Source of the DNA: Lactobacillus panisapium
GTDB lineage: Bacteria > Bacillota > Bacilli > Lactobacillales > Lactobacillaceae
Direction: 5' to 3'
Length of the DNA stretch: 64,000 bases
Assembly: GCF_019469265.1 (NCBI RefSeq)
Contig: NZ_CP048268.1
Coordinates: 1,209,501-1,273,500, forward strand
This document shows, in pieces, positions 27,337 through 37,068 of the stretch. How positions within the stretch are numbered: the first letter of the stretch is position 1; each line of letters begins with the position of its first letter. Below the pieces are notes generated by a model that was not told the DNA's origin, did not search any database, and saw only the letters and a list, made by a program, of their open reading frames with translations. Made by a program: the position numbers and the translations under genes.

Positions 27337-28173
27337 TTATTGACTTTTTAACCTTTTCCGATAAGTGGAAGGTGTTGCACTATAGACATCTTTAAATATT
27401 TTTTGCAGGCTTCGAACATTGGCAAAACCGCATTGGTCGGCAATAACGGTAACAGGCAAGTCAGTATTAACTAGTAAATCATAGGCATGTTGTAAACGAA
27501 TCAGCTGCAAGTAATGAATCAAGCTTGTTTGTACTTCGGTTTTAAATAAGCGATCCAAATATGCCTTTGAAAGGCCAAAGTGATCAGCAACTTCGTCTAA
27601 AGTTAAGCTATCTCGATAATTGGCGGTTAAAAAATTAATGATATCTTTAACCTTGTCCTGCTTTCTGGCATCATTAAAGCAAATAATATTCTTTTTTGGT
27701 ACAACAAAATTTCTGAGAAGAAGCGCCATTAAAAGATAAAAATGTCCTAATATTTCAATCTTATTTTCATGATTATGTTGATTAGTCCAAAGCTGATAAA
27801 TCCTTGTTAGCTCAGTTTTTACCTTCAGCATTATTTCCTGATCAGTGATTTGAGAAATAAAATACAAATGATTAATTTCAGGCAGCAATTCATTCAAGAA
27901 CTCAAATGGAACAAGAATGGTAATTGATCAACGAGCATTACCTGGACAAATATTTTCGACACCATGAACTTCACCAGAATTAATAATTATGAAATCGCCG
28001 TCACTCAAGTGCGTTTTGTGCCCCGAAGTTAGGTAATCGCCTTCACCATGAATAGTAAAATCAATTTCTAGGGCACGGTGCCAGTGTTTAGTAATTTGAA
28101 GTGCTGAAGAATTATGAATAATAATCTTAAACGGTAAGATTCCCTTAGTAACAATAATTTCATGACGAAACAT
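27337..28173 (-). pseudogene. AraC-family regulator interrupted by an in-frame TGA
   Basis: One reading frame of 278 codons with a single TGA at 27928-27930. The first part (81 residues, MFRHEIIVTKGILPF...) is the cupin-type sensor domain ending GDFIIINSGEVHGVENICPG. After the stop the same frame continues SITILVPFEFLNELLPEI and ends in two AraC helix-turn-helix motifs (ADHFGLSKAYLDRLFK and ADQCGFANVRSLQKIFK). Without the TGA this would be an ordinary AraC activator. The stop probably replaces TGG (Trp) or CGA. It may be a genuine null mutation, a readthrough case or a sequencing error. It stands 12 bases after the hydrolase and 90 before the MFS gene. Confidence 0.85.
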
Positions 28174-28185
28174 CTTTATCTTCCT

Positions 28186-28986
28186 TTACTGTGGTAGATA
28201 ATGATTAAGTAATAAAAAATGGCGTAGTAATTGATTAAATTGTTGCGGTACTTCTGCCATTATATCGTGACCACAATTTGGCACAATGGAAGCGGTAATT
28301 TGAGGATTTTGTTCTGCCATCCAGTTTGCGAACTGAAAAGGATAATATGGACTCTTTTCAGCCGCAAAGATAATCATCTTCTGGCTGCTACGTTTAATTA
28401 TTTTCCGCCAGTCTAGCTGAACATGCTCTTGCAATAAGTCCAAATTTGCTTTTCGATCAAATGGGTAAGCAATTTTGGCTGGTAATAATTCCGTCATAAC
28501 AGAACTATCGATGCCATGAAGCGTTTCATGCACCTGCGGAGCTAATAGGGTCAAGTCTTGGTAATTTTCCAAAGTAAAATTCATAAAGCCATAGTGCCAA
28601 GACTTCGTATTTAGCATATATGGGCTTTGATCAATAATAACTGCTATATCAATAATTTGCGGTTTAATTTTTAACAAGTTATAAATAATACTCCCGCCCA
28701 TTGAATGGCCAATAAACGTGGCCCGAGTTATTTTTAGAAAACTTAATAGCTCAATTAGATCCTTAGTTAGTCTTTCAAGTGATTGTCCTTTGGCTGTACG
28801 CTGGCTTTTACCCATATTACGGTGATCATAAGTTAAAACGCTATAACCCATTTTTCTAAGGTAGGAAACTTGTTTTGTCCAAACTTCTTGATAGCCACCA
28901 AAACCGGTTATTAGAATCAGTGGCTTACCGGTGCCATAAAAATGAAAATTAAGTTCTACGTTATCGCTTGTTTTAAAAATACTCAT
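28186..28986 (-). CDS. Alpha/beta hydrolase
   Basis: Compact 266-residue alpha/beta hydrolase. LILITGFGGYQEVW forms the oxyanion region, FIGHSMGGS is the nucleophile elbow (Ser95) and NCGHDIMAEVP carries the catalytic His (240); the acid residue is not certain. No signal peptide. Its ATG overlaps the mdcG stop codon by four bases, so it is translationally coupled to the malonate decarboxylase genes. Substrate unknown. Such hydrolases act on esters, lactones or thioesters, and the context makes a malonyl ester a reasonable guess only. Confidence 0.85.
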   Translation of the reverse strand: MSIFKTSDNVELNFHFYGTGKPLILITGFGGYQEVWTKQVSYLRKMGYSVLTYDHRNMGKSQRTAKGQSLERLTKDLIELLSFLKITRATFIGHSMGGSIIYNLLKIKPQIIDIAVIIDQSPYMLNTKSWHYGFMNFTLENYQDLTLLAPQVHETLHGIDSSVMTELLPAKIAYPFDRKANLDLLQEHVQLDWRKIIKRSSQKMIIFAAEKSPYYPFQFANWMAEQNPQITASIVPNCGHDIMAEVPQQFNQLLRHFLLLNHYLPQ

Positions 28987-29648
28987 TTATTTTCCTGTAA
29001 AAATTGCCAAGGATCGACAACTAGAAGTGGTCCCGCAGCGGTTTTTACCAAAGTTTTTTTACTACGATTAGCAGCATATTCCTCTAATGAAAAACCGTTT
29101 TGACCTTTGACTACTTGTACATCAGCGTGCACATGATACTGATTCAGCTTTTGCAAAAGTTCTTGGGCCTGACTTCTGTTTAACGTAGGAGTTTGATAAA
29201 GTAGCAAATCTAAGTCACTGACATGTTCCGTCGTGCTTTTAACCATTTTTACACCGGTTGCCATTTCATATCCTAACGAGCCTCCTATTCCCCACTGAAA
29301 ATTGTTTAATAGCGGGACTATCTTTTGTAATGCCTGAAAAGGTGGAAGTTTTTGTCTATCTTCAGATAAACCTTCCCAACTTTTATGTTGAATAAAGTAC
29401 TGGGGATGATATTGCTTTTTAATAGCTGCAACATTTAAGTAGCAAGCAAACCTTTGCTTTCTTTCGTAACCTCTTATTCCAACTGGGATCAGATTATCGT
29501 TGATTAAGCCCCGTCTAACCACCACTGTTTTTGTCTCAGACAAAGAATCCTTTGCCCAGCCAGGTAAAGGATTCTCGGTTAAAACTAGATCTTGCAAACT
29601 AGTGAATTGCAGTAAATCATTGGGCCATATTGCCGTTAATCGTTCCAT
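28983..29648 (-). CDS. mdcG: Malonate decarboxylase holo-ACP synthase MdcG
   Basis: Transfers the phosphoribosyl-dephospho-CoA prosthetic group from its triphosphate precursor to Ser of the apo acyl carrier protein MdcC. The 221 residues show the MdcG pattern: N-terminal PNDLL and PGWAKDSL, VVVRRG...IPVGIRGYERKQRFA, and the nucleotidyltransferase-like GGSLGYEMATG...SDLDLLLYQ. The start overlaps the mdcDE stop by 13 bases. The precursor is normally made by MdcB, whose gene is not in this window; a CitG-type enzyme elsewhere may supply it. Confidence 0.88.
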   Translation of the reverse strand: MERLTAIWPNDLLQFTSLQDLVLTENPLPGWAKDSLSETKTVVVRRGLINDNLIPVGIRGYERKQRFACYLNVAAIKKQYHPQYFIQHKSWEGLSEDRQKLPPFQALQKIVPLLNNFQWGIGGSLGYEMATGVKMVKSTTEHVSDLDLLLYQTPTLNRSQAQELLQKLNQYHVHADVQVVKGQNGFSLEEYAANRSKKTLVKTAAGPLLVVDPWQFLQENK

Positions 29649-31303
29649 TGGTCAAACACAGCTTTACGCATCTCATTAGTTGCCTTCCGGCCACTTGCAA
29701 TGGCAACTGGATTTTCATACCTATAATGTAAATCGGTCGAGTGCTTCTTGGTACTTGTAATGGCCTCATTAATAATTTGCTCAACTTCTGAAACGGCCGC
29801 ATCATTTGCGTCCCAAGAAGAAACATCAGGGACTAATTTATACAAAGCACCCAATTTGGCATAATTTTTAATGTCATAAGCCATTGCCGGAACGTGCTTC
29901 GTAGCCTCTTCTAGTTCTGGAATTGATCTTTGGGTAATTCGAGCAGCCGAAGCTTTTGACATTGCCTGAATGGTAATTGAATCATCAGCTAAGGCAATCA
30001 TTCTGTTGGATTGCAAACCGTGGGCTAAAAAGCCGCCTGAAACTGCATCCCCTGGAATAAAGGCAATAACTGGATGACCGGCCTGCCGAGCCTTTGCATA
30101 GGCGGCTGCCGCAGAAGCTAAACTAATGTGAATACCTATCAATTCCTCCTTATACCCATAAGCTTGGCTTGGAACATCAACGATTAAGATAAGCGGACGT
30201 TTAACATCATTATTTTGATCTTCAGCAACAATTTGATTAACGATTTTTGCGACTAAAAATCCTTCTTGCAACCCCACCTCACCGTGACGTACACGAGGAA
30301 AGCGGTTATTTTCATTAGGAACAATCGCAATAAATTCTTTGCCATCTTTTTCCGCATGAAGAACTGTTGGATAATCTGATTTTGCATTCGGTAAACCAGT
30401 TAGTTTTTCAAACCACAAGCGGCCACGAGACTTGGCAGTTGCCTTATCCCCAGCTACCGCTTGGTTTATATCATGCTTATTAGCCTGATTTTTAGCATAA
30501 AGAGAACAATATTGCTTTGTAGTAAGGGGCTTAGCAAAATCAATTTGATCAAGTAAAGATAGATAAAAATCAGATTGCTCAGTCCGATGAGCATCCTTTT
30601 TTTCTTCGATTGCTCTATCAATAGCTTCTTTAATAGTCGTGATATCATCTTCGTCAACTTCATCTGCAATTCCTGTAGCTACTCTTTGACGAGTTCCAAG
30701 CGTATTCCAAATTAAGTCCTTATCACTAGAATCAAATTCACGTACACCAGCTTCTTGTTCGATAACTTCGGGACCATTTAAAGCAATTCTAGCTTTTGGT
30801 GTTGTAATTAAGTATGACATAATTGCACTAGTAATTGACATTCCGCCAAAGCTGCCGACCCTTCCCGGTACTAGTCCAATTACGGGAACATATTGTTTCA
30901 AGGCAATAATGGCATTTTGAATTTCAGAAATAGACAATAACCCGTAATTAGCTTCTTGCAGACGAACACCACCAGTATCAAGAATAATTATTGGGTATTC
31001 CTTTATACCTTGCTTGTTATCATCTAAGGTTTTTTCTAAAGCTGCAACTATTTTGGCGCCAGATACTTCACCAATTCCACCACCTTGAAACTTTCCTTCG
31101 ATAGAAATAATTACGACCCTTTTACCGTTTAGTTTACCTTTGACAAGAACAACACCATCATCACTTTCTGGAACAATTTTTTGCGGCTCAAGATGTGGTG
31201 AAATCATATCATATTCTGGTCCAACTAATTCTCGACCAGTGCCTTTATCAATTAAAGCATTTGCTCGTTGACGACCATTTAATTCTACAAAACTATTCTT
31301 CAT
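29636..31303 (-). CDS. mdcDE: Malonate decarboxylase beta/gamma subunits (MdcD-MdcE fusion)
   Basis: Decarboxylates malonyl-ACP to acetyl-ACP in the biotin-independent malonate decarboxylase. The N-terminal half (about 1-290) is the MdcD-type carboxyltransferase fold with GGGIGEVSGAKIVAALE and ILDTGGVRLQEAN. The C-terminal half (about 300-555) is MdcE-like with LILIVDVPSQAYGYKEELIG and the crotonase-type GDAVSGGFLAHGLQSNRM. In proteobacterial clusters these are two proteins; here they are one 555-residue chain without a stop or frameshift. ATG 31303 overlaps the mdcC stop by 11 bases. Confidence 0.92.
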   Translation of the reverse strand: MKNSFVELNGRQRANALIDKGTGRELVGPEYDMISPHLEPQKIVPESDDGVVLVKGKLNGKRVVIISIEGKFQGGGIGEVSGAKIVAALEKTLDDNKQGIKEYPIIILDTGGVRLQEANYGLLSISEIQNAIIALKQYVPVIGLVPGRVGSFGGMSITSAIMSYLITTPKARIALNGPEVIEQEAGVREFDSSDKDLIWNTLGTRQRVATGIADEVDEDDITTIKEAIDRAIEEKKDAHRTEQSDFYLSLLDQIDFAKPLTTKQYCSLYAKNQANKHDINQAVAGDKATAKSRGRLWFEKLTGLPNAKSDYPTVLHAEKDGKEFIAIVPNENNRFPRVRHGEVGLQEGFLVAKIVNQIVAEDQNNDVKRPLILIVDVPSQAYGYKEELIGIHISLASAAAAYAKARQAGHPVIAFIPGDAVSGGFLAHGLQSNRMIALADDSITIQAMSKASAARITQRSIPELEEATKHVPAMAYDIKNYAKLGALYKLVPDVSSWDANDAAVSEVEQIINEAITSTKKHSTDLHYRYENPVAIASGRKATNEMRKAVFDQWND

Positions 31304-31586
31304 TATTTAATGCCTCCATTGCCTGTGTTAATCGTAAATTAACGACACCCGGTGTGGCTCCAAAATCATGAATAACAAACCTGCCTTGTAAAGGATACCT
31401 TGCAAAAAAGCGGTCAAGGACATTTTGCCAAACCTGTTTGAAACCGTCACTACCAGTCACAATTTCTAATGAAGTTTTGTCATCAGGATAAATTAATACT
31501 TCTAAATCTCCGGAGGCAACGACACCAACATGAACAAATTTAGTCACTGGCTGAGTGTTTTGATAGCTAAAATTAAGTTTTTCCAT
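31293..31586 (-). CDS. mdcC: Malonate decarboxylase acyl carrier protein MdcC (delta subunit)
   Basis: Carries acetyl and malonyl groups on a phosphoribosyl-dephospho-CoA arm. With the start at ATG 31586 (perfect AAGGAGG upstream) it has 97 residues and reads MEKLNFSYQ...HVGVVASGDLEVLI. Ser25 in ASGDLEV lies exactly where the prosthetic group is attached in characterised MdcC. The C-terminal HDFGATPGVVNLRL segment is also typical. A longer frame to 31646 is spurious, as it overlaps mdcA and ignores the ribosome-binding site. It lies 16 bases after mdcA. Confidence 0.92.
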   Translation of the reverse strand: MEKLNFSYQNTQPVTKFVHVGVVASGDLEVLIYPDDKTSLEIVTGSDGFKQVWQNVLDRFFARYPLQGRFVIHDFGATPGVVNLRLTQAMEALNNEE

Positions 31587-31602
31587 TTTATTAACCTCCT
31601 TA

Positions 31603-33243
31603 TTATGACCATGACCTAAACTTGGCAGGTGGATTGTACAAGCCATGTGACCATTGCACTAAATCGTCCATTGTTTGAGCAGCCAGTAATGAACGTTTTG
31701 CATCCCGGCGGGCAACACCAATATCTTCTGGTAAAGCAACGATCCCTTGATCGCGCAGTTTTTGGACCTCTTTTGGCTTTGAGCGCAAGCCAACCGGTGT
31801 CACACCTGCTACTGCTTCAATTGCAGCTTTTCTTTGTTCCATACTGTCAGTTTTATACAGATATGCGATTCCTTCTTCAGTCACGATATGGGTCGTATCC
31901 TCGGTATAAATCATAATTGGAACGTTAGCTAATTTAGCTTCTTTACGTACCTTTTCAGCATCTAAGTGATCAACAAAAACGGGCTTTTTATTAGAACCAA
32001 ATGTTTCAACCATCTGCACAACGAGCTTTTGCCCTTTTGCCAATGGGTTATCTTCGGGCTTCAAGCTTTGCCAAGCAGGAGTTGAATGACGCCGACCGGT
32101 TGGATTAGAGCCCATGTTAGGCGCACCACCGAAACCAGATAAACGACCATTGGTGACTGTTGAAGAATTACCCCATTGATCGATTTGTAAAGTAGAACCA
32201 ACAAACATATCACAAGCATATTGTCCGGCAACTTGGCCTAGGGCACGATTCGACCGCATTGTTCCGTCATTACCTACAAAGAAAATATCTGGCCGCGCCA
32301 TAATGTACTTTTCCATCCCTACTTCACCACCAAACGAGTGAATTGATTCCATCCAGCCGCTTTCGATTGCTGGTATTAAGGTTGGGGTTGGATTTAGTTC
32401 CCAGTTACGACAAATTTTACCTTTTAAGCCCAGTTGCTCACCATAAGTTGGTAAGAGAAGTTCAATTGCGGAAGTGTTAAAACCTACACCGTGGTTTAAA
32501 GTTTGAACATTGTGTTTTTCATATATTCCCCGAATTGCCATCATGCCCATTAAAATTTGCAGTTCGCTAATTGCTTGTGGGTCACGGGTAAATAGTGGCT
32601 CAAGCTGGTAAGGCTGATCAGCGGGAATAACCACATCAACCCAACCGGCGGGAATATCAACTCTTGGTACTTGATCAACGATTTCGTTAGCTTGAACGAT
32701 TACAATGCCATCATGAAAAGCTGCTGCTTCGACAATAGTCGGTGTTTCTTCAGTATTAAAGCCCGTATATAAATTGCCTTCATGGTCTACTTTATCAGCG
32801 GCTACTAAAACAACATTAGGAATTAAATCGATAAATAGACGGCCAAAAAGTTCCAAGTATGTGTGAATGTCGCCAACTTCCATGGTGCCATCAGAAATCA
32901 TTTGCGAAACGCGAGTGCTCTGAGGACCTGCGTATGAAAAATCCATTTTGGCAGCAATTCCTAAGTCAAAAATGTCTAAGTGCTCTGGCCTAGAAATACT
33001 TGACATAATCATATGTAAGTCATGAACTTTTTCCGCATCTACTTTTGTCAGTGCTTCTGACAAAAATGAAGCTTGCTTTTGATTATCGCCTTCCAAAACA
33101 ACCTTGTCTCCAGGTTTAATTAGTGTCTCAAGGACCTTAACAACATCCTCTGTTTTAGCAAATTTCCCCTCGAGCAGTGTCGCCGCTTTTGCTAAGCGTG
33201 CATTTTTAGCATCCCGATGGGTGTGCCAATTTCTTTCAGTCAT
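31603..33243 (-). CDS. mdcA: Malonate decarboxylase alpha subunit MdcA (acetyl-ACP:malonate ACP-transferase)
   Basis: Swaps acetyl for malonyl on the carrier protein, releasing acetate. The 546-residue protein starts MTERNWHTHRDAKNARL, the family beginning, and keeps LKPGDKVVLEGDNQKQASFL-like N-terminal, GVGFNTSAIELLLPTYGE and NMGSNPTGRRHSTPAW blocks of the MdcA family. ATG 33243 has an AAAGGA site; a 15-residue upstream extension overlaps mdcH and is unlikely. The start overlaps the mdcH stop by eight bases. Chain length matches known MdcA. Confidence 0.94.
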   Translation of the reverse strand: MTERNWHTHRDAKNARLAKAATLLEGKFAKTEDVVKVLETLIKPGDKVVLEGDNQKQASFLSEALTKVDAEKVHDLHMIMSSISRPEHLDIFDLGIAAKMDFSYAGPQSTRVSQMISDGTMEVGDIHTYLELFGRLFIDLIPNVVLVAADKVDHEGNLYTGFNTEETPTIVEAAAFHDGIVIVQANEIVDQVPRVDIPAGWVDVVIPADQPYQLEPLFTRDPQAISELQILMGMMAIRGIYEKHNVQTLNHGVGFNTSAIELLLPTYGEQLGLKGKICRNWELNPTPTLIPAIESGWMESIHSFGGEVGMEKYIMARPDIFFVGNDGTMRSNRALGQVAGQYACDMFVGSTLQIDQWGNSSTVTNGRLSGFGGAPNMGSNPTGRRHSTPAWQSLKPEDNPLAKGQKLVVQMVETFGSNKKPVFVDHLDAEKVRKEAKLANVPIMIYTEDTTHIVTEEGIAYLYKTDSMEQRKAAIEAVAGVTPVGLRSKPKEVQKLRDQGIVALPEDIGVARRDAKRSLLAAQTMDDLVQWSHGLYNPPAKFRSWS

Positions 33244-34153
33244 TATCTTTTCCTTTCCATTTATGTAATAAAAAATCTGCGTCATCAATCGTCATATTTG
33301 CCAAAGTTATATTAGCTAGTTGATTCGTTTTTGCCTTTAATAATTTAGTAAAAGCAGTTCCTGGAGCAAATTCCACGCTTACTTGTGGGTTGTATTCAAG
33401 AGCCACATTGATCATTGTTTCCCAAAAAACAGGATGAGTTAGGTTATTGGCCAAATCATAGCTAATTTCAGCTATGCTTTTAACCGGATGTCCATTATTA
33501 TTTGCTAAATAAATACAGGTAGGAGAATGCAACTCTAACTGCCCAATCTGTTTGGTCAATTTATCCGCCACGCTTTGCATCAATGGTGAATGCGAAGGAT
33601 TCGGAACTTGTAAAAGTTTAGCCTTGGCTGCACCGCTTTCTTTAGCTAATTGGAGTACGGCTTGAATAGCAGTTATTTTGCCAGACAAAGTGTTTTGCAA
33701 TTCAGAATTTTGGTTTGATAAAAAGACCGGATCTTTTTCCGTGTTCACTTGTTGCACCAAGTTCCCAACTTCTTGACGAGATAGGCCTACAACGACACCC
33801 ATGCCATAACCTATTGGAAATGATGATTGCATTAGACTTGCTCGCAAACTTACAAGTTTAAAAACATCCTCTCTATTAATAACGCCGGCAGCATAGGCGG
33901 CGGCAAAAACTCCAAGTGAATGCCCCGCTACGATATCTGGTAGCCAGCCTTTTTCTTTGAGCTGATCAATTTGCTGAACTTGCAACAACAAAATACTAAG
34001 CTGAATTTGTTGCGAATTTTGATAGCCCTTTTCACTGTCTACAAGCTTCACACCTGTCCAACTTTCAACCTTACTTTTTAATGTCGGGTCAATCTTTTGA
34101 AGCATCCCGGCCTTTTGACCCCCTTGACCGGGAAATAACCATAAGTATTTCAA
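33236..34153 (-). CDS. mdcH: Malonate decarboxylase malonyl-CoA:ACP transacylase MdcH
   Basis: Loads malonyl groups onto the carrier protein to prime the decarboxylase. A FabD-fold protein of 305 residues: FPGQGGQKAGM at residues 7-17, GHSLGVFAA with nucleophile Ser79, and NPSHSPLM with catalytic His188. It could be mistaken for fatty-acid FabD, but it is directly coupled to mdcA, so MdcH is the better call. TTG start at 34153 with GAGGTGA four bases upstream. First gene of the mdc operon; divergent from the LysR gene. Confidence 0.88.
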   Translation of the reverse strand: MKYLWLFPGQGGQKAGMLQKIDPTLKSKVESWTGVKLVDSEKGYQNSQQIQLSILLLQVQQIDQLKEKGWLPDIVAGHSLGVFAAAYAAGVINREDVFKLVSLRASLMQSSFPIGYGMGVVVGLSRQEVGNLVQQVNTEKDPVFLSNQNSELQNTLSGKITAIQAVLQLAKESGAAKAKLLQVPNPSHSPLMQSVADKLTKQIGQLELHSPTCIYLANNNGHPVKSIAEISYDLANNLTHPVFWETMINVALEYNPQVSVEFAPGTAFTKLLKAKTNQLANITLANMTIDDADFLLHKWKGKDND

Positions 34154-34262: not shown

Positions 34263-35135
34263 ATGAATTTAACCGGATTAAAATATTTTGTTAGTGTCGC
34301 AAGTATAGGTTCAGTGACTGAAGCAGCTAAGCTAGCATACGTAAGTGAATCAGCAATTAGTAAAACCATCAGGCAATTAGAAGAAGAAATAGGCGTTAAA
34401 TTGTTTGACCGGCAAGGAAGAACAATTCAGCTTAACCAACAAGGAAAGATTTTTTATTCATATGTTTCCGATAGCTTAAATTTACTAAACCGTGGAATTA
34501 AGGCTGTCCAAACTAATAAAGACCAAGAAAATAGCCAAATTAATGTTCTTTTTACTGTTGGCTCACCGCTCATCCCACTTGTTGCCCTTAAAATGCAAAA
34601 ATTACTGCCTAATGTCAGTCTAAATATTCATCAACGGACAACCTTCGCTAAGGATTTAAAGCAGTTTGATTTTATTATCTCTTCCAATAAAATTGACCAT
34701 TTTACCGCAATTCCGTTATTAAAAGAAGAAATAGTAATTGGCTGGCAAAAGAATTTTATGCAAGGTAAACATAATTTAGATGTTAAAGATTTACCGAATT
34801 TTACTTTTGTCGGCGAAAGTGATGAAACTGAATTGCAACAAACAATTAATCAGTTTTTAGCTAAAAATGAATTAAAACTCAATTTTAAATATCAATCTGA
34901 TGAACCAGCTACGGTGCGAGAAATGATTGCAGCAGGTCTAGGCATGGGCTTTATTTCCAAAGTTACTTGGGGAAGCTTTTTTACCAATTTTCATTTAATC
35001 GACAGTGCAAGAATTTTCCCCAATTCGCCGCAAAGAACAATTTATCTAAATACGCCCTACCAAAATTTAACTGATAACCAAAGATTATTTAGTAACGAAA
35101 TCGCTGCAGTACTAACGGGTGCACAAAATAGATAG
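34263..35135 (+). CDS. mdcR: LysR-family regulator of the mdc cluster (MdcR-like)
   Basis: LysR protein of 290 residues: N-terminal helix-turn-helix (MNLTGLKYFVSVASIGSVTE then AYVSESAISKTIRQLEEEIGVKLFDRQGR) and a two-lobe effector domain. It is divergent from mdcH with 109 bases between them. Malonate decarboxylase clusters of proteobacteria are also controlled by a LysR protein (MdcR) sensing malonate, so the same role is inferred here. The name rests on context, not on a sequence signature. Confidence 0.7.
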   Translation: MNLTGLKYFVSVASIGSVTEAAKLAYVSESAISKTIRQLEEEIGVKLFDRQGRTIQLNQQGKIFYSYVSDSLNLLNRGIKAVQTNKDQENSQINVLFTVGSPLIPLVALKMQKLLPNVSLNIHQRTTFAKDLKQFDFIISSNKIDHFTAIPLLKEEIVIGWQKNFMQGKHNLDVKDLPNFTFVGESDETELQQTINQFLAKNELKLNFKYQSDEPATVREMIAAGLGMGFISKVTWGSFFTNFHLIDSARIFPNSPQRTIYLNTPYQNLTDNQRLFSNEIAAVLTGAQNR

Positions 35136-35240: not shown

Positions 35241-36344
35241 ATGGATAAATATCCTTATCCCACCTATAAAATTGCTGACATTGGTGACTACTTAAAAGTA
35301 TTTGCTTGTACAGCAGTGATGTCTCAACCAATCATGTCCTTAATCATGGGAAATGGTCAGCCTATAAGAACACAAGACATTTTTGGTATTCTGTATAATT
35401 TAGTCAAATATACTGCTCCAGCCTTTATTTTTGGCATTTTATATACCACCATTAGAACTAATGATTTAGCGGGAAACTTTTCTTACCGCAAGCATCTGCG
35501 TTCAAGTTGGTCGAACTTGTTTGTACCAACTATTTGGTGGACTTTGATTTATTTACTAGGAATGCCTTGGCTCCAACAGATTAATCAATTTCATAATTTT
35601 GGTTCTTTTTGTTGGCATTTTATTAATGGTAACGCTGCGCCACATTTGTGGTACAACACAATGATGTTGCAATTTATCATCTTAATGCCACTTTTCTGGG
35701 CAATCAGTCGCTTTGTCGGCAATAACGTGAAAAAAGGAATTGCTGTAGCATTAATCACGCTAGTTTTATATTTAGCTTGGCTCTTGTTTTACGACACAGA
35801 GGTATTTCACGGTGCGCATGAAAAAACGTGGTATCTGCTTGATCGCGTGTTTATTTCGTTTTTTATCTACGGAGTCTTTGGTGTCCTCTGCTGGCAATTG
35901 CGGAATCAAGTTAACAACTTTTTACAAAAATTTTGGTGGCTGATCTTAATTACTTTTGTTGCTTGTTTCATTTGGACCAACTTTGAATTATATCAGTTCG
36001 GTCATCCCGTTCTTTTTGCCAATGCACCGTATTATAAGCCATCAATGACATTTTATTGCTTAGCGGTTATTGCATTAATCGCTGCACTTTGCTTATATCA
36101 AGTACGAAAAAATTCAGAAACAGCTTTAACAGTTTTCCATTTTCTTGCTACTTATGCCTATCGTGCCTATTTATCAAATGTTTTTTGGAATCAACTGGTC
36201 TGGCGCGGACTAAATATGCAATTCCACGCAACATACCACCCATTCTTAACTTTCTTTGGCACATGGATATTAACATGGATTTTGTCATTCACGTCAGCTT
36301 ATTGTCTGCATATTTGGTGGACGAAAATAAAACAAATAATCTAA
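35241..36344 (+). CDS. Acyltransferase-3 family membrane protein
   Basis: Integral membrane protein of 367 residues with about ten hydrophobic helices. IADIGDYLKVFACTAVMSQP at the N-terminus and HLWYNTMMLQFIILMPLFW in the middle match the acyltransferase-3 family, which moves acyl groups onto cell-surface sugars. No extracellular SGNH domain, so it is not an OatA-type full-length enzyme. The substrate is unknown. ATG 35241 has AAGAAAGG upstream. It is 105 bases after the LysR gene on the same strand and ends at a strong terminator. Confidence 0.8.
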   Translation: MDKYPYPTYKIADIGDYLKVFACTAVMSQPIMSLIMGNGQPIRTQDIFGILYNLVKYTAPAFIFGILYTTIRTNDLAGNFSYRKHLRSSWSNLFVPTIWWTLIYLLGMPWLQQINQFHNFGSFCWHFINGNAAPHLWYNTMMLQFIILMPLFWAISRFVGNNVKKGIAVALITLVLYLAWLLFYDTEVFHGAHEKTWYLLDRVFISFFIYGVFGVLCWQLRNQVNNFLQKFWWLILITFVACFIWTNFELYQFGHPVLFANAPYYKPSMTFYCLAVIALIAALCLYQVRKNSETALTVFHFLATYAYRAYLSNVFWNQLVWRGLNMQFHATYHPFLTFFGTWILTWILSFTSAYCLHIWWTKIKQII

Positions 36345-36442: not shown

Positions 36443-37068
36443 TTACTTTTTGACAATAGAAGCTAATCCGGCCATGATGTTTTCATATTGCTGCTCATTT
36501 TCAACAAATTTGTCATTATTAACGATAATATCTGCAATTTCTTTAACCCTCAATGCCCCATGTTTTATCTTAAACTGGTCTTTTTTCTTGGTTCGTTCAA
36601 CTATTTCATCAAAGGTATAGTTTTCCCCATTATCGATAGTTTGTTTCTTAAATTCGCGTTTCGCTCTAACCTCAAGAGGAGCTTCAATATAAATATTAAG
36701 CATCTTTTCTCCTAGTTCCTTTTTCAGGTATGCCCCAAGTTCTGAGCGATACAAACTTTCAATGAAGCGTAATGAGTTCCTGCCTCCTGCATTTTACCAA
36801 TTAGACGATACAAGAATTCACGAAAAATCTGTTCAGGGTTGTTTGCATATAACTTTTTGAAATCATTTTCCGTTGGATGTCCGCTAAATTGATAGTTTCG
36901 TTCAAGCATCATCTCTTTTTCAATTGCAATGATTTTCATTCGTTTTATGCCAATACTATCGAAATAAAATCCAGCTGCTGATTTACCGCATTCACTTAAG
37001 CCACCTAATGAGAACATTCCCTTAACATATTCTTTTCTCTTAGTAAATTGCTTATCGGTTATTTTCAT
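36443..37068 (-). pseudogene. Frameshifted P-loop nucleotide-kinase-like protein
   Basis: Two overlapping minus-strand frames are halves of one protein. The first (37068-36724) starts MKITDKQFTKRKEYVKGMFSL with a Walker A motif GLSECGKS. The second (down to 36443) contains LNIYIEAPLEVRAKRE, the substrate/lid pattern of small kinases, and a Lys-rich C-terminus. A one-base indel near 36779-36790 joins them: read through, the sequence becomes QEAGG-RNSLRFIESLYRSEL, which is more protein-like than the 114-residue frame's own tail. The whole would be about 208 residues. Resembles dephospho-CoA- or cytidylate-kinase-type NTPases; substrate unknown. A proper ribosome-binding site and a cre-overlapped promoter suggest recent loss or a sequencing error. 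Confidence 0.75.

Follow-up and report, generated by a model that had tools for sequence, protein, structure and literature searches.

Organization of the malonate decarboxylase operon

The window analyzed here, a stretch of 64,000 nucleotides, spans positions 1209501-1273500 of the single contig (2,188,116 bases) that forms the 2.19-Mb genome of Lactobacillus panisapium. Within this window, mdcH, mdcA, mdcC, mdcDE, mdcG, and an alpha/beta hydrolase gene form a single minus-strand run from position 34153 down to 28186 (Table 1). All junctions within this run are overlapping or abutting, with true overlaps at H/A, C/DE, DE/G, and, through ATGA, G/hydrolase. An earlier, sequence-only reading of this DNA had described mdcH to mdcG as a tight set of overlapping genes, and the genes were found as it placed them. 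The operon continues past mdcG into the hydrolase gene, which that reading did not include. Judged by its sequence, the locus is assigned as an mdcB-less operon for biotin-independent malonate decarboxylase, with the Lactobacillaceae layout (mdcH-A-C-DE-G-hydrolase and a divergent LysR gene).

Table 1. Predicted genes of the malonate decarboxylase locus, in window coordinates
Gene and predicted product	Position	Strand	Basis
Alpha/beta hydrolase, last operon gene	28186..28986	-	ATGA overlap with mdcG; Ser95-Asp119-His240
mdcG, holo-ACP synthase (phosphoribosyl-dephospho-CoA transferase)	28983..29648	-	NF002332, TIGR03135
mdcDE, fused decarboxylase beta-gamma, 555 aa	29636..31303	-	TIGR03133 + TIGR03134
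mdcC, acyl carrier protein (delta), 97 aa	31293..31586	-	TIGR03130
mdcA, acetyl-ACP:malonate ACP transferase (alpha)	31603..33243	-	TIGR01110, PF16957
mdcH, malonyl-CoA:ACP transacylase (epsilon)	33236..34153	-	best match TIGR03131
LysR-type regulator, divergent (mdcR position)	34263..35135	+	PF00126/PF03466
TmAT-fold integral membrane protein, candidate permease, behind the LysR gene	35241..36344	+	PF01757 match, TmAT fold

Most gene calls exceeded curated cut-offs. MdcA scored 897 bits against TIGR01110 (cut-off 789), and MdcG scored 170 bits against NF002332 (cut-off 126) while also passing TIGR03135. MdcC scored 109 bits against TIGR03130 (cut-off 84) and fell just below the cut-off of NF002293 (111.7 versus 115). 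The weakest call of the operon was MdcH, for which TIGR03131 is the right model but the score was 229.7 bits against a cut-off of 297.9. Among 50 clusters containing mdcDE, mdcH was present in all and the LysR gene in 44. Longer open reading frames are available for mdcA (31603-33288, from an upstream TTG) and mdcC (31293-31646, from an upstream ATG). An AGGAGG motif precedes the mdcC ATG used here. With this start the key serine, in the context VASGDLEVL, is Ser25, so that the prosthetic-group residue is retained under the numbering previously given to it. The role of this serine is described in the accessible text of the Pseudomonas structure paper (PMC5534430).

MdcDE matched TIGR03133 over residues 3-273 (345 bits) and TIGR03134 over residues 294-553 (272 bits), both above cut-off. 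The protein is therefore a complete beta part joined to a complete gamma part in one frame. Separate D and E genes were ruled out, as the same fusion occurred in all 50 Lactobacillaceae clusters able to show it, the present one included. It was not visible in two of the 52 mdc loci in all, namely L076, which ends with its contig, and L084, a lone mdcA-like gene.

Two further genes flank the locus. An AraC-family regulator gene (27337-28173, minus strand) is interrupted by an in-frame stop, leaving pieces of 81 and 186 aa; the gene at this position in locus L129 is an open frame of 278 aa. It precedes genes for an MFS transporter, an esterase-like protein, and a ROK-family protein, a trio that recurs in L078 and L129. 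On the other side, a short gene (36443-37068, minus strand) is split between two frames, 114 and 103 aa long, that overlap; the second has a weak cytidylate-kinase match below cut-off.

Active-site residues of MdcA, MdcD, and MdcE

Residue positions from the Pseudomonas structure paper (PMC5534430, accessible text) were compared on alignments. Seven of seven were kept in MdcA (Asn59, Tyr134, Asn292, Phe312, Arg341, Gln345, and Gly381 in P. aeruginosa numbering). MdcDE retained all three MdcD residues (Val121, Gly162, and Arg180) and all three MdcE residues (Gln100, Tyr102, and Ser142), the latter under an assumed offset of 16 in the MdcE chain numbering that suits each of them. Thus, 13 of 13 checked residues are conserved.

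A single CitG encoded apart from both operons

The sequence-only reading had reported that MdcB, which makes the prosthetic-group precursor, was absent from the window, and had proposed a search of the remaining genome. A profile search for the CitG/MdcB family (PF01874) across the whole genome returned one match, C1:124196-124975, which lies outside the window. This gene passed the CitG model TIGR03125 (314.3 bits, cut-off 272.3) and failed the MdcB model TIGR03132 (219.4 bits, cut-off 282.35). Run over the whole genome, the MdcB model recovered only this same gene, below cut-off. The single PF01874 match rules out an mdcB elsewhere in the 2.19-Mb contig. The genome thus encodes one triphosphoribosyl-dephospho-CoA synthase of this family, a CitG, and no MdcB. 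An mdcB gene beside the cluster, the finding named earlier as contrary evidence, did not occur.

The orphan citG lies ~1.1 Mb from the mdc operon. A LysR gene and a shortened gene lie upstream of it, and it is convergent with a flavocytochrome-c-type reductase gene. By eye, the shortened gene (L002:10500-11273) is nitronate-monooxygenase-like; it had no NCBIfam match at E 1e-30. It encodes 257 aa here, compared with 331-363 aa in four loci of the genus, and a 69-aa piece lies upstream. Also near citG, the region L002:12787-18203 encodes two acyl-CoA dehydrogenases, a CaiB-type CoA-transferase, and an electron-transfer-flavoprotein pair, the last assigned by eye and by one weak-model match. These genes are nearest to acryloyl-CoA reductase parts, below cut-offs, and the set is unusual for a fermenting Lactobacillus.

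The citrate lyase genes citC, D, E, F, and X were found at ~1133-1137.5 kb, each over its cut-off. No citG is present in this citCDEFX operon, which rules out the citrate cluster as the home of the gene. The earlier suggestion that a CitG from a citrate lyase cluster supplies the precursor therefore stands in part: the genome has one CitG by curated cut-offs, but the citrate cluster lacks citG and the gene stands apart. Because the citrate operon has no citG either, the orphan CitG is the only supplier identified for MdcG and CitX, the two loading enzymes, and its product most likely goes to both MdcG/MdcC and CitX/CitD.

The citrate operon also encodes an RraA-like protein (L004:15348-16046; over cut-off for NF004850, with relatives that include oxaloacetate decarboxylases) and an L-lactate/malate dehydrogenase-family protein (L004:16065-16994; over cut-off for L-lactate dehydrogenase). 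Both genes lie upstream of a DASS transporter gene.

Distribution of CitG and MdcB across Lactobacillaceae

We surveyed 397 Lactobacillaceae genomes, with five short 25-29-bit matches omitted from mdcA counts. The CitG/MdcB family was present in 191 of 193 genomes with citF or mdcA, compared with 5 of 204 with neither. It occurred in 42 of 43 genomes with full mdcA; the sole miss was G116, in which an mdcA-like gene stands alone, with neither a cluster nor a CitG. A family member was located within 9 kb in 35 of the 50 clusters with mdcDE. For the remaining 15, 14 genomes carry one elsewhere. The exception is G440, an mdc-bearing Lactobacillus whose genome is 68% complete.

Full mdcA was found in 15 of 75 Lactobacillus genomes, as an open frame in every case. 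CitG in these 15 was encoded at the cluster end (3), just past the membrane protein gene (1), or away from the cluster (10), and was not found in one. An arrangement solely in trans is firm for nine of the 15; a tenth, G438, was set aside, as its cluster is cut by a contig end and it has a second CitG with unseen surroundings. Besides the present genome, seven of the nine others with a distant gene have citG beside a flavocytochrome-type gene, while G406 and G428 fell outside this comparison. In five Lactobacillus clusters (L126, L130, L131, L133, and L135), H-A-C-DE-G is kept, but genes for LysR, the hydrolase, the membrane protein, and CitG are all missing from the vicinity. By eye, these carry instead a peptide-binding-like lipoprotein and a 345-aa membrane protein.

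A tree of 79 CitG/MdcB sequences resolved into two deep clades (support 100/99). The MdcB clade contained all 21 genes sited between mdcA and mdcC, plus three of genus g26, where long branches meet as the g26 sequences join the tree. The CitG clade contained citrate-linked genes, Lactobacillus orphan genes, and genes inside mdc clusters of three Lactobacillus species (G210, G311, and G351) and four genomes of genus g12. The present CitG grouped with the Lactobacillus orphans, outside the MdcB clade. In its simplest reading, this tree suggests that in Lactobacillus CitG, whether encoded inside the cluster or in trans, has assumed the role of MdcB, such that a citrate-type CitG would replace MdcB across the genus.

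Six genomes (G296, G325, G335, G345, G350, and G354) have mdcA, no citF, and a single family member, which belongs to the CitG clade. A CitG-type synthase thus goes with mdc alone, and these genomes are the best sign that such a synthase may serve malonate decarboxylase.

Proposed supply of the prosthetic group

Gene content, motifs, synteny, the tree, and the presence of a single CitG are direct observations. Together they suggest that the lone orphan CitG very probably makes the precursor for both malonate decarboxylase and citrate lyase in this mdcB-less genome. CitG, encoded ~1.1 Mb apart, would make 2'-(5''-triphosphoribosyl)-3'-dephospho-CoA. MdcG would put this precursor on MdcC Ser25, and CitX would put the same precursor on CitD of citrate lyase, so that one synthase would supply two acyl-carrier enzymes. 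MdcH would prime the carrier, MdcA would swap acetyl for malonate, and the fused MdcDE would decarboxylate malonyl-ACP. Here, we infer expression, modification, activity, and the sharing of the precursor. Given its separate neighborhood and perhaps separate regulation, citG might be silent while mdc is expressed.

The sequence-only reading had offered a second option, in which the complex is inactive. Under this explanation the loss of mdcB would leave the carrier permanently apo and the operon a decaying remnant. MdcB is indeed encoded in neither cluster nor genome, MdcH scores below its curated cut-off, and the adjacent AraC-family gene is interrupted. Nevertheless, every gene of the operon is open and overlapping, the checked active-site residues are kept, and the genome does have a CitG. 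Nine Lactobacillus genomes retain the operon with CitG in trans only, mdcA being open in 15 of 15, and this pattern, together with the six mdcA-bearing genomes lacking citF, makes inactivity highly unlikely. We do not favor it.

A further alternative is that CitG serves citrate lyase alone, with MdcG taking another nucleotide or apo-MdcC being loaded otherwise. The gene is of the citG lineage and is needed by citrate lyase, and use of the CitG product by MdcG is itself deduced. This account is harder to reconcile with the six mdc genomes without citF whose only family member is of the CitG clade, or with CitG-clade genes inside mdc clusters of Lactobacillus and genus g12. We regard it as the least probable of the explanations considered. 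With CitG shared and standing in for MdcB, both malonate and citrate breakdown may hang on one gene here. Judging by mdcB beside the cluster alone would label the pathway incomplete.

The operon-encoded alpha/beta hydrolase

Older work reportedly described a citrate lyase deacetylase activity in Rhodopseudomonas. This activity corresponds to EC 3.1.2.16 and is not known to have been assigned a gene. As an addition to the shared-CitG explanation, the hydrolase is a tentative candidate for such a function, though a doubtful one: it could cleave acetyl-S-MdcC, and its paralogue acetyl-S-CitD, turning the enzymes off. The link is one of association. The genome has two matches to the hydrolase in all, one in the mdc operon and one, at 31% identity, in the citrate lyase operon. 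Homologs occur in 34 of 50 mdc clusters and in 22 of 30 citrate clusters examined. The hydrolase tree splits in two: mdc accounts for 35 of the 46 rows of one clade (the mdc clade) and cit for 20 of the 33 rows of the other (the cit clade). Ser95, Asp119, and His240 are invariant in 47 of 47 sequences, and the AF2 model has a pLDDT of 97.7.

Several observations weigh against this role. The hydrolase is absent from 16 of the 50 mdc clusters (one, L136, cut by its contig). It is present in 78 of 204 genomes with neither citF nor mdcA, where 20 loci showed mixed contexts, so that it cannot be a part always needing a carrier enzyme. Among such genomes is the L. johnsonii group, whose copy nests within the mdc clade. 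Foldseek's matches, among which a missing family is uninformative, were general esterases and haloperoxidases. Nothing direct on the role of the hydrolase was found in the literature covered, which largely excluded subscription journals.

The neighboring membrane protein

No known malonate carrier was detected among the 40 window proteins scanned with Pfam. MdcLM was not seen in clusters bearing the membrane protein; MdcF is the other known malonate carrier. The membrane protein gene lies beside 42 of 50 mdc clusters, two of these with a very divergent version. Over 256 genomes (taken to be G000-G255), it was found in 22 of 24 with mdcA, compared with 52 of 232 without. The protein is therefore not strictly mdc-bound, and 20 loci from genomes without mdcA showed mixed neighbors. 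A search of PDB sequences gave no credible match (best E 0.99).

AT3 acyltransferases carry R/K-X10-H in helix 1 and RXXR in helix 3, according to the accessible text of PMC7448272. In the present family, R/K-X10-H is absent from all 48 aligned proteins, which have an invariant Gln at K+10 and, at K+11, P, T, S, or I. The present protein lacks RXXR, which one of the 48 has in the region of helix 3. The protein might be the Lactobacillaceae malonate carrier, a TmAT acyltransferase fold turned carboxylate permease, a possibility we hold only loosely and think unlikely. Nothing direct on such a carrier role was found in the literature covered, again with subscription journals largely outside it.

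Two genomes of the L. johnsonii group, G037 and G171 (loci L184, L185, L011, L014, L186, and L187), show neither mdcA nor CitG. Both keep an mdc-clade hydrolase and a membrane protein that closely resembles the mdc-linked ones, encoded at separate places.

Comparison with known systems

The malonate decarboxylase itself is ordinary, and what is new, the probable sharing of a citrate-type cofactor gene, is a modest variation. A search of titles and abstracts, with partial journal coverage that gives no proof of novelty, found no report of CitG shared with malonate decarboxylase. The hydrolase and the membrane protein are the better leads for surprise, and as conserved neighbors they are targets for studying acyl-carrier control and malonate uptake. 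In having neither R/K-X10-H nor RXXR, the membrane protein differs from the TmAT superfamily (AT3 acyltransferases, HGSNAT, and GWT1) as portrayed in the accessible text of PMC7448272 and PMC12423673.

As far as its accessible text describes it, the Pseudomonas holoenzyme (PMC5534430) has MdcA, MdcC Ser25, MdcD, and MdcE in common with the present system, down to the active-site residues, as well as the accessory proteins MdcG and MdcH. In contrast, MdcD and MdcE are fused here, MdcB is absent with CitG in trans, MdcLM was not seen, and a hydrolase and a membrane protein are added.

Malonate clusters in Lactobacillus have been published for L. pentosus KCA1 (PMC3602190) and later for L. pentosus TBRC 20328 (PMC12427679). 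The KCA1 cluster shares mdcR, H, A, C, D, and E, and the number beside that of mdcR belongs to an integral membrane protein. Its five subunit names fall on four locus tags, which would fit a D-E fusion. The accessible text of the KCA1 paper reports no malonate experiment, and that of neither paper mentions mdcB, CitG, or the hydrolase.

The citrate lyase system of lactic acid bacteria (CitC/D/E/F/X/G), as outlined in the accessible text of PMC10798043, uses the same CitG-made precursor. In the present genome, however, citG is not part of the citrate operon, and two systems most likely depend on it.
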